Shown here one piece after another: positions 31,296 to 40,076 of a stretch of DNA of 64,000 bases (positions are counted from its first letter, which is position 1; each line of letters starts with the position of its first letter). The DNA lies in assembly GCF_000424065.1 (NCBI RefSeq), contig NZ_AUJE01000002.1, positions 1 to 64,000 of the forward strand, given 5' to 3'. The DNA is from Selenomonas ruminantium subsp. ruminantium ATCC 12561 (GTDB lineage: Bacteria; Bacillota; Negativicutes; Selenomonadales; Selenomonadaceae). Below the pieces are notes generated by a model that was given only the letters and a program-made list of their open reading frames with translations, did not search any database and was not told the origin of the DNA. A program made the translations under genes and the position numbers.

Positions 31296-31374
31296 GCCCG
31301 GTGGCCGGGGATGCCTTTCCGTAACGTTTGACAAGCCTGTCTAAGTGAAGGAAAGGTATCCCCGGCCACCGGGC
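31296..31374 (-). repeat. Palindromic hairpin element, copy 4 (apex inverted)
   Basis: Arms 31296-31320 and 31350-31374 pair (GCCCGGTGGCCGGGGA... / ...TCCCCGGCCACCGGGC, with one interior mismatch) around TTTGACAAGCCTGTCTAA, the reverse complement of the family apex with one base changed. It lies between convergent genes. Confidence 0.9.
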
Positions 31375-36112: not shown

Positions 36113-36946
36113 ATGGATGTGATCGCTTTGGTCGGGCCCAGCGGTACCGGCAAAAGTCACCACGCGCTGATTGTGGCGCATAAACATAAGGCTGACGCCA
36201 TTATCGATGATGGTATCCTGATTAAGGATGGCAGGATAGTGGGTGGCCATTCAGCAAAAAAAGAACCGAGCAAAATCATGGCTGTACGGCGGGCGATTTT
36301 TGTCCTGCCGGGACATGCCGAGGAAGTGCAGGCGGCTATCAAAGAGGCCAAACCACACCGAATCCTGATTTTGGGGACTTCGGAGAATATGGTCTTTAAG
36401 ATTGCGAAAGCCCTGCATTTGCCGCATATTGCCAAGATTATTCATATTGAGGACGTGGCAACCAAACAGGAAATGGAGAAAGCACAGTATCATCGGCTCA
36501 AAGAGGGCAAGCATATCATTCCTGTGCCCACCATTGAACTGAAACCTCATTTTTCCGGTTTTTTGGTAGACCCGTTGCAGACCCTTTTTAAGCGGTCATC
36601 GACCCAAAGGCGCCGCCTGGGGGAGAAGTCCATCGTTCGGCCGGTATTCAGTTATTATGGAAAACTGATTATTGATGATTCAGCCATTAAGTCTATTGTG
36701 CAGGCTGCTTTAAAAAAAATCGAAGCCATCACCAAGGTCGATGGCCTGCAGGTAAAGCATATGATGCAGGGCTCTGAAGATCAAGGCTTGAAGATTGTCT
36801 GCGGTGTAGTACTTACCTATGGAAATCATATTCCCACGCTGCTGGCGCAGGCACAGAAAGAAGTGCGGGACGCGGTGGAGTTTATGACGGGAATGATTGT
36901 GCATGAGGTCAATATTCAGGTAAAAACTTTATACGTTAGGGCATAA
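36113..36946 (+). CDS. P-loop NTPase fused to an Asp23/Gls24-like domain
   Basis: A 277-residue fusion. The N-terminus has a Walker A motif GPSGTGKS (residues 8-15) and an ILILGTSENMVFKIAKAL region, resembling a small nucleotide-binding domain. From about residue 170 (RPVFSYYGKLIIDDSAIKSI) to the end, the sequence follows the Asp23/Gls24 alkaline-shock domain. Its last strand reads IVHEVNIQVKTLYV, as expected for that fold. Asp23 proteins usually lack an ATPase and tie stress response to the cell envelope; coupling to a P-loop is unusual. It ends an operon that starts at spoVS or the PHP gene and is followed by palindromic element copy 5. The domain call for the C-terminus is from pattern only. 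Confidence 0.7.
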   Translation: MDVIALVGPSGTGKSHHALIVAHKHKADAIIDDGILIKDGRIVGGHSAKKEPSKIMAVRRAIFVLPGHAEEVQAAIKEAKPHRILILGTSENMVFKIAKALHLPHIAKIIHIEDVATKQEMEKAQYHRLKEGKHIIPVPTIELKPHFSGFLVDPLQTLFKRSSTQRRRLGEKSIVRPVFSYYGKLIIDDSAIKSIVQAALKKIEAITKVDGLQVKHMMQGSEDQGLKIVCGVVLTYGNHIPTLLAQAQKEVRDAVEFMTGMIVHEVNIQVKTLYVRA

Positions 36947-36977: not shown

Positions 36978-37056
36978 GCCCGGTGGCTGATGATTGCTTT
37001 CCTTCGCTTAGACAAGCTTGTCAAACGCTGCGGAAAGTAATCATCAGCCACCGGGC
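36978..37056 (+). repeat. Palindromic hairpin element, copy 5
   Basis: Arms GCCCGGTGGCTGATGATT (36978-36995) and AATCATCAGCCACCGGGC (37039-37056) pair perfectly. Inner CTTTCC / GGAAAG pairing and the apex TTAGACAAGCTTGTCAAA are as in copy 1. A short T-tract (TTTTTC) follows, so this copy could act as an intrinsic terminator for the plus strand. Confidence 0.9.
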
Positions 37057-37152
37057 TTTTTCTTGTGTTATTGTGATTTTTCTGGTCTGGCATGACGATA
37101 GATGCCTTCCCTGCTGAGGGCTGCGATTCTTGGTTTTGCTCTATTAAGGAAG

Positions 37153-38388
37153 TTAGCGCAGGGAATTGATGGTTACCAATATCAAGGCCAGCCCTTGCCC
37201 TGCTAAGGATCCCCAGGCGGGGAGGAAGGGGAAGCCAAAGGTGTAGAAGGCACCTGCAGCAGGCGGGAGAATCAGGAGGAAGGTGATGAGGGAAATCAGT
37301 TTGTTCGTTTGGATGCGACTGAGTGTTTGCTTGCCGATTTCCTGCAGGGCAGCAAAGTCCCAAAGTAGGCCACTGTGCAGGTAAATGGCATGGGAGTTAT
37401 GAGGCTCTGCAGGGGAGTCTGCAATATCCATCTCGTTGGTGACGGGCATAGTCTTGGGAGCGGGAGCTAGTTCGATAAGTGCATCGACCGCTTTGGCGAT
37501 TTCCGGATTGGTCTGTCCGCGTCCCACAAAGGCAACACCGGTACCACGCGCCTTTAAAAGCTGAATTTCCCGAAGTTTTCCCTCTACGGTCAGCTGGCCG
37601 TGGGCAGCATCGATATCTGCTTTTTTGCCGATGGTTTCGGCTGTACGCTTATTTTCCCGCGTAAGCATCACGGTATGGATATGTTGTCGCTTTAATTTGC
37701 GGATTGCTTTTAAGGTATCCTCGGAAAGGGCATCGTCGATGGTGATGATGCCCCGGCAGTATTTACCATTAGCGACAAAGACTGTACTGTGCCCTTTTTG
37801 GGCCAGTTGGTCATTTTTGGTGATGAGTTCGGCGCTGATGTCAATGCCTTCCCGTTTTAGCCAGGGAAGGGTTCCTACTCGTATGGAATTGCGTCCGACG
37901 ATGGCTTCCACGCCGCAGCCGGGGATTTCGGTGAAGGTATTGGCTTCTAAAATTTGCAAGCCACGCTGACTGGCTGTTTCATAGATAGCCCGGCCCAATG
38001 GATGAGTCGCTTGCTTCTCTGCAGAGGCAGCGAGACTCAAAAGCGCATTTTGACTGATGCCTGCCGGATAGAGATTGGATACATAGGGATGACCTTCCGT
38101 AATAACACCATGGCGGGCCAGGATTAAGGTGTCAATGTTGCCAATTTCCGCCAGCTGGCTGTCACTGGCCAGTGTGATATCGTTTTTTTTCGCCTGTCGT
38201 GCCCCACGGGTGTAAGGAAGAAGTTTTCCCAGCATATAGGGCAAGGGTAAGCCGGCGATGAATACCGCTGCGGCAGCGTTTATCACGGTGATATCATCGA
38301 GGCCGGCACTGTGCCAGTAATAACCGATTCCACTTGCCAAAAGTACAGAGAGAATGGATAGATAAAGACTTGTACGATTTTTTTTCAT
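37153..38388 (-). CDS. Degenerate, truncated P1B-type ATPase-like protein (probable pseudoenzyme)
   Basis: A 411-residue protein that aligns with the C-terminal half of heavy-metal P1B ATPases but has lost the catalytic residues. The metal-binding CPC is LPL (about residues 48-50). The phosphorylated DKTGT is A91-R-H-G-V95, although the flanking TEG remains. The GDGxNDxP motif reads GRGQTNP (289-295), and TGD is lost (MLTREN). Retained are the HP motif (H129-P130), the GCG loop, HSTVFVANG and C-terminal helices. The actuator domain and early membrane helices are missing. ATG 38388 has GAGGAG six bases upstream. The frame is clean, which argues for a conserved non-catalytic role rather than decay. 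It could be a regulator or partner of a true metal pump. Confidence 0.75.
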   Translation of the reverse strand: MKKNRTSLYLSILSVLLASGIGYYWHSAGLDDITVINAAAAVFIAGLPLPYMLGKLLPYTRGARQAKKNDITLASDSQLAEIGNIDTLILARHGVITEGHPYVSNLYPAGISQNALLSLAASAEKQATHPLGRAIYETASQRGLQILEANTFTEIPGCGVEAIVGRNSIRVGTLPWLKREGIDISAELITKNDQLAQKGHSTVFVANGKYCRGIITIDDALSEDTLKAIRKLKRQHIHTVMLTRENKRTAETIGKKADIDAAHGQLTVEGKLREIQLLKARGTGVAFVGRGQTNPEIAKAVDALIELAPAPKTMPVTNEMDIADSPAEPHNSHAIYLHSGLLWDFAALQEIGKQTLSRIQTNKLISLITFLLILPPAAGAFYTFGFPFLPAWGSLAGQGLALILVTINSLR

Positions 38389-38489
38389 AAGCATCTCCTC
38401 GTTTCTTTACAACATATTCGGCAAGAGAAAATGTTTTTCCTTCATTTCCTGTATACATTTCTATATAGAGGAAATTTATAGCGAATTTA

Positions 38490-39997: not shown

Positions 39998-40076
39998 GCC
40001 CGCCCCGCTGATAATACTTTCCTTCGCTTAGACAAGCTTGTCAAACGCTGCGGAAAGTATCATCAGCGGGGCGGGC
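39998..40076 (+). repeat. Palindromic hairpin element, copy 6
   Basis: Arms GCCCGCCCCGCTGAT (39998-40012) and ATCAGCGGGGCGGGC (40062-40076) pair perfectly. The inner stem and apex TTAGACAAGCTTGTCAAA are identical to copies 1 and 5. Confidence 0.9.

Follow-up and report, generated by a model that had tools for sequence, protein, structure and literature searches.

The window analysed here, a stretch of 64,000 nucleotides from Selenomonas ruminantium subsp. ruminantium ATCC 12561 (contig NZ_AUJE01000002.1; genome G000, 3.39 Mb in 67 contigs), contains a gene whose product resembles part of a P-type ATPase (Table 1). A preliminary description, made from the sequence alone, had read this gene as an intact frame of 411 codons with a good ribosome binding site, and this reading holds: the frame is open, and since the MKK that begins at ATG 38388 is invariant in 11 aligned sequences and is preceded by AGGAG, the 411-codon start is the likely one. 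Residue numbers taken from the structural model and from the conservation analysis count from an upstream in-frame ATG (413 aa) and exceed the 411-aa numbering by two. The gene is flanked on one side by a divergent symporter-like gene, which we take to be of the AGCS type, and on the other by a convergent gene. Both this convergent neighbour (36113-36946) and a neighbour of the orthologue in genus g14 (7490-7900 of L067) appear by eye to contain an Asp23/Gls24-like part, possibly by coincidence.

Table 1. Features of the pseudo-ATPase gene and its product, in window coordinates
Feature	Position	Strand	Basis or remark
Pseudo-ATPase gene	37153..38388	minus	Open frame, 411 aa, stop codon within range
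Ribosome binding site AGGAG	38395..38399	minus	6 bases ahead of ATG 38388, read from sequence
First membrane helix, corresponding to M3 of CopA	38308..38376	minus	Predicted helix 7-29 and CopA match
Second membrane helix and extension, corresponding to M4	38185..38295	minus	Predicted helices within 34-70
LPL where CPC (metal-binding) is expected	38242..38250	minus	Motif reading
ARHGV where DKTGT is expected (A91, 411-aa numbering)	38104..38118	minus	Motif reading
N (nucleotide-binding) domain, most constrained part	37732..38085	minus	dN/dS and conservation
HP motif of N domain (H129-P130)	37999..38004	minus	Kept
GCGVEA, the GxG loop of the N domain	37903..37920	minus	Kept
Second part of P domain, degenerate active site	37465..37731	minus	Sequence comparison
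GRGQTN where GDGxND is expected	37507..37524	minus	Motif reading
Third and fourth membrane helices, corresponding to M5-M6, metal residues lost	37156..37365	minus	Predicted helices and alignment

The motif losses reported in the preliminary description can all be read in the sequence: the Asp of DKTGT is alanine (A91), CPC is LPL and GDGxND is GRGQTN, while HP is kept. In addition, the YN of M5 has become TF, and the Met and Ser of M6 are replaced by Q and L. The actuator domain is missing, as had been claimed, since PF00122 is not listed for the frame in Pfam, where the only match over the cut-off is PF00702 (HAD Hydrolase). PF00122 occurs three times in this genome, in three other open reading frames of 858, 643 and 732 aa; because all three matches sit in other frames of 643-858 aa, no separate gene supplies the actuator domain, and a split pump with this domain in another gene is ruled out for the window's genome. 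With the NCBIfam profiles, the protein scores 153.3 bits for TIGR01525 (P1B), far below the cut-off of 346.25, and 59.9 bits for TIGR01494 (general P-type), just under the cut-off of 62.3. What it shares with the P1B family is an N domain with HP and GCG, the fold and common descent; what it lacks is the Asp, the CPC, YN, Met and Ser residues, the actuator TGE, GDGxND and a TIGR01525 score over the cut-off. With Asp, metal ligands and A domain all missing, a P-type ATPase cannot pump.

Structure prediction with AlphaFold was carried out for the window protein in alignment with 10 orthologues. The model of the window protein has a mean pLDDT of 72 and a pTM of 0.56 (the five models lie between 44 and 72), and its confidence is low at 96-100, 152-160 and 312-328; in the GxG-loop region, pLDDT falls below 50 at 152-154 and 156-160. 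Comparison using Foldseek and VIA-align matched the model to M3 to M6 of CopA (7r0g; TMq 0.77, Z 22.9, rmsd 3.9 over 383 residues), with an alignment that spans the whole protein (residues 6-413 against 336-724 of 7r0g), and the best sequence match in the PDB is also CopA (3j08, E 2.4e-32). Since CopA is matched over the whole length, the protein represents M3-M4-P-N-P-M5-M6 of a pump without its front half.

Within the genus, 20 of 22 genomes, counting that of the window, have an orthologue, the other 19 copies being 39-86% identical to the window protein; completeness is 83% and 86% in the two genomes where none was found. If close relatives had intact orthologues of full length, the window copy would be a recent pseudogene, but all 20 copies within the genus are dead, the term that we use for copies without the catalytic residues, and intact forms occur in four other genera. 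A family-wide search matched 173 of 189 genomes at E <= 1e-35 (a search of the order returned the same 189 genomes), an upper bound because weak matches can be the resident CopA, exemplified by a match in G044 that lies in an 855-aa frame. Loci from 122 Selenomonadaceae genomes were inspected one by one and aligned, giving 115 dead copies, 6 intact pumps (L063, L139, L066, L138, L072 and L082, from genera g10, g12, g25 and g26) and 1 intermediate. The intermediate, L085 of G177, keeps the Asp (DRSGT), has TPA for CPC and shows no TGE string that we could find. Measured from stop to stop, the frames of 95 dead copies are shorter than 500 aa, two are of 538 and 587 aa, and 18, from genera g9, g16, g19, g20 and g21, are of 627-757 aa; these long copies lack CPC, DKTGT and the CxxC of the HMA domain, and a TGE-like string is present in only one. 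The dead set takes in L017 (in-frame stop), L094 (fragment) and copies cut at contig ends. In-frame stops were flagged in a few orthologues (G020, G139, G024, G035 and G045); those of L017 / L041 (G020) and L094 (G139), which are TGA and TAG, possibly mark true recent pseudogenes or assembly errors.

The 16 family genomes that had given no match at E <= 1e-35 were re-examined using a dead orthologue as the query, and short frames appeared in G012, G013, G103, G140 and G152, outside the 122 classified loci. No short copy was seen in genera g7 and g8, complete genomes included, where the matches sit in frames of at least 652 aa, nor in G089 and G113. A class-wide search of 380 genomes with a dead member as the query (E <= 1e-48) matched 11 genomes outside the family, and among the matches listed, which are frames of 758-842 aa in 8 of these genomes and leave G224, G272 and G280 aside, there was no short dead form.

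Alignment of the dead copies demonstrated that the losses noted in the window recur throughout: the Asp of DKTGT is kept in 0/115, and both Cys of CPC likewise in none, although the Pro between them is retained in 107/115. The residue at the Asp position varies (P 26, N 22, G 21, S 21, A 16, T 4, R 3, C 2). YN survives in a single copy (L141), the Met in 7/115, the Ser in 25/115 and the first Asp of GDGxND in 29/115; 93/115 still have the P-domain Lys. Pseudoenzymes are well known among kinases and proteases, and the sequence-level features of one are found together here: catalytic residues lost across orthologues, an intact gene and purifying selection. The orthologues and the dN/dS values given below rule out a recent pseudogene or an assembly error as the origin of the window gene.

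Dead and intact forms occupy one locus and are orthologues of a CopA-type copper pump, here designated CopA-alpha, as their shared gene order and the trees show. Both forms have divergent ispE, GntR, glmU and prsA on one side and cydABCD on the other, names that, cydA apart, are assumed from sequence resemblance; cydA was checked by Pfam PF01654 (a total of 156 in the presence list). Of 102 testable loci, 53 have ispE nearby, and of 119 testable for cydA, 39 have it immediately downstream in the same orientation (36 dead, 2 intact and 1 intermediate), the gap being as small as 34 bases in genus g22. The preliminary description had raised the prospect that orthologues adjoin metal genes; the neighbours are cydABCD in part of the family and other genes elsewhere. 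The interval separating ispE from cydA in g8 was searched for a remnant of the gene, as was the region preceding cydA in g7; neither gave a convincing match. In g8 (L114, L115 and L116), where no pseudo-ATPase was found, the ispE-cydA interval codes for a protein of some 290 aa that has several clusters of the CxxC type, and in g27 (L083, L122 and L124) this protein, of the 4Fe-4S type by eye, is encoded beside the pseudo-ATPase.

In a first tree, for which the catalytic columns were removed and 81 of 119 rows used (38 near-duplicates or incomplete rows were left out), the intact forms branch ahead of the dead ones. In a second tree, intact and dead alpha copies form one clade (94/98) beside the CopA of two other families, and the resident CopA of the same genomes, CopA-beta, belongs to a separate clade (99/99) with the CopA of a third family. 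Both trees gave long-branch warnings for many dead rows, and two other P1B pumps (L002 and L003) fall inside the alpha clade on long branches in the first tree and are the outgroup in the second.

A set of 34 genomes was searched with the resident CopA of the window's genome as the query. A separate CopA-beta was present in all 28 genomes without an intact alpha and in none of the 6 with one; 26 of the 28 carry a dead or intermediate alpha, and in G059 and G061 no alpha was found. In the six intact-alpha genomes, alpha itself is the best match (47-50% identity) and the rest are other P1B pumps (34-37%). CopA-beta sequences fetched from 20 of the 28 genomes have DKTGT, CPC and TGE without exception; the match in G028, G035, G142 and G148 is partial or broken by contig ends. 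This distribution suggests that the second pump took over and thereby freed the first, and it may reflect one event on the tree rather than 34 independent ones.

Selection on the dead form is purifying. Between dead orthologues dN/dS is 0.045-0.154 over 23 pairs; the values are 0.027-0.043 for the window's two flanking genes (8 comparisons) and 0.050 and 0.065 for two pairs of intact alpha. By domain, 15 dead pairs pooled gave 0.036 for N, 0.072-0.074 for P, 0.134 for M3-M4, 0.138 for M5-M6 and 0.193 for the linker. In four CopA-beta pairs the order is reversed, with N at 0.207 against 0.041-0.110 elsewhere, and in the single intact alpha pair examined by domain, N is again the highest (0.058). 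When close dead pairs are taken singly, N ranks lowest in dN/dS among the four larger domains in 14 of the 19, the P-b value being undefined in one of the 14. By identity, N is the most conserved of the four domains in 136/136 testable cross-genus dead pairs (from an alignment of 113 rows, L017 and L094 left out; a set of 18 rows for the genera gives 153 pairs, of which 136 are testable in four domains) as opposed to 0/325 CopA-beta pairs, and at matched overall identity (0.5-0.9) in 262/326 dead pairs as opposed to 0/302 CopA-beta pairs, counts that are not independent because pairs share sequences. Domain constraint is thus turned over in the dead copies relative to CopA-beta. The preliminary description had seen in the selective losses the mark of a repurposed, catalytically dead protein; the absence of the Asp from every dead copy, the low dN/dS and the shift of constraint to the N domain support that view; the partnership with a real metal ATPase that it also put forward would be compatible with these results. 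The protein is almost certainly a conserved dead P1B-ATPase, and its identity is firm, that of a genuine P1B-type pseudo-ATPase, old and widespread within a single bacterial family.

Within the N domain, the dead copies conserve Ala123 (115/115), Glu126 (109/115), His131 (102/115), Gly161 (115/115), Glu163 (115/115), Gly174 (114/115), Gly201 (114/115) and Gly215 (115/115), all in the 413-aa numbering. The Pro of HP is kept in 82/115, as against 102/115 for its His, and in the GxG loop the second Gly and the Glu are present in 115/115, the first Gly in 88/115. From the alignment with CopA, we take these conserved positions to include the Glu, the His and the GxG that hold ATP in CopA and ATP7B. 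At the position that we equate, in a presumed register, with N1150 of ATP7B, Asn is found in only 15/115 dead copies. In a study of ATP7B, the isolated N domain has an ATP Kd of tens of micromolar, G1099, G1101, G1149 and N1150 lie close to ATP, and the H1069Q substitution leaves ATP affinity unchanged (PMC3203118).

The window gene is thus the orthologue of a copper pump, CopA-alpha, which some Selenomonadaceae still have in its place between ispE cluster and cydABCD. The dead alpha copies have lost the Asp and the metal residues and, in most of them, the complete front half including the A domain. The remainder, four membrane helices and the P/N head, has stayed under purifying selection, for a function that we infer to reside in the N domain, most likely the binding of ATP or another nucleotide without hydrolysis. 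The membrane-anchored protein would in this way change the state of a partner protein, its membrane part possibly serving as a loosely constrained anchor. Because selection keeps the N domain most, we favour a nucleotide-binding, non-hydrolysing membrane regulator or adaptor, an assignment drawn from sequence that we make tentatively, at somewhat below even confidence; some new role at the membrane is probable. For the statement as a whole, in which a retired copper pump has found new use as a pseudo-ATPase anchored in the membrane and probably acts as a nucleotide-binding regulator or adaptor, the chances seem to us evenly balanced. More speculatively, the conversion may date to the ancestor of most sampled Selenomonadaceae, in which, after a second pump took over, the first would have become a nucleotide sensor signalling through its N domain to a membrane partner such as a respiratory or transport complex; this scenario is conceivable and we hold it with reserve.

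Conservation of the N domain could also reflect contact with a protein instead of a ligand. The N domain would then be a protein-binding surface without nucleotide and the dead protein a scaffold or modulator, for example of CopA-beta, which has the same fold. The occurrence of CopA-beta in 28/28 genomes without an intact alpha, 26 of them with a dead or intermediate copy, is in keeping with this, as is the variation of some pocket residues (the His is lost in 13/115 dead copies and the first Gly of GxG in 27/115). However, residues of the nucleotide pocket (Glu, His, GxG and RVG) are among those conserved best, and since CopA-beta is also present in G059 and G061, where no alpha copy was found, beta does not need alpha; we consider this explanation unlikely, if worth keeping in mind. 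An accessory or assembly factor of the cytochrome bd oxidase, its role inherited from the place ahead of cydA, would account for the 39 loci with cydA directly downstream, at a gap as small as 34 bases, but 80/119 loci have no such adjacency and the cyd genes of the window's genome are on another contig. Moreover, 19 of 122 genomes have no cydA match, 17 of these with a dead copy; several of them are incomplete, yet G019, G146, G155 and G157 are 98-100% complete. Conversely, G059-G063 have cydA and no alpha copy was found there. Neither co-occurrence nor linkage with cydA being strict, a strict partnership is weakened, and a role with cytochrome bd appears improbable.

The fast evolution of the membrane helices and the linker, the in-frame stops in a few orthologues and the failure to find a short copy in g7, g8, G089 and G113 could be taken as signs of a decaying relic without function. 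The selection data largely contradict such decay: dN/dS stays within the range given above in all 23 pairs, the N domain is as constrained as the flanking genes, and long open frames are found in nearly all 115 copies, so that we give this reading very little credence. Catalysis of an uncommon sort, namely a HAD-type reaction that uses a different nucleophile, would agree with the PF00702 Hydrolase match and with the P-domain Lys kept in 93/115 dead copies, but the position of the Asp has no common substitute, being P, N, G, S, A, T, R or C, and the first Asp of GDGxND remains in only 29/115; retained catalysis is accordingly highly improbable.

Among known systems, soluble P-type-ATPase-like HAD proteins of the MJ0968 kind consist, like the window protein, of a P/N core without a complete pump; unlike it, they are catalytically active and have no membrane helices. 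With CopA and the P1B copper ATPases (TIGR01525, TIGR01511; 3j08, 7r0g) the window protein shares the order M3, M4, P, N, P, M5, M6 together with HP and GxG, and it is orthologous to the intact CopA-alpha of four genera; in contrast to CopA it is devoid of the Asp, CPC, GDGxND, the A domain, the HMA domain and M1/M2. Human TMEM94/ERMA is likewise a P-type-ATPase-like membrane protein for which the absence of a phosphorylation cycle is argued and TGES is described as absent, but that protein possesses ten helices, a domain resembling A and an Asp (D417) (PMC12134183), and its status is disputed (PMC13322241). PINA, a truncated splice form of ATP7B, resembles the window protein in having neither the metal-binding domains of the N terminus nor membrane helices one to four (PMC3750203); it arises, however, by splicing from the gene of an active pump, and weak copper transport has been reported for it in yeast (PMC3750203), whereas the window gene stands alone and its catalytic residues are gone. 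Among the matches listed in the open-access literature, to which most subscription journals do not belong, we found no description of dead P-type ATPases that form a family in bacteria, and the closest published cases were TMEM94 and PINA; the same literature yielded none on truncated, degenerate or inactive P-type ATPases or on a P-type ATPase as a pseudoenzyme, none on a Selenomonas P-type ATPase with cytochrome bd and, judged by title, none on cydABCD with a P-type ATPase. Genes of this kind may be misread as copper or heavy-metal transporters. Within one bacterial family, this single locus exists as an intact pump, as a dead form of full length and as a dead form of half length, so that the change of a transporter into something else can be traced and put to the test.

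The window also contains a dispersed repeat with the core CCTTCGCTTAGACAAGCTTGTCAAACGCTGCGGAAAG, located at 1857-1893, 31315-31351 (minus strand, 3 mismatches), 37001-37037 and 40021-40057. By eye, long complementary arms are present at about 36980-37060, and the repeat is possibly a REP-like hairpin element. It is found at 16 places in the genome at <=2 mismatches, compared with 0 for the control.
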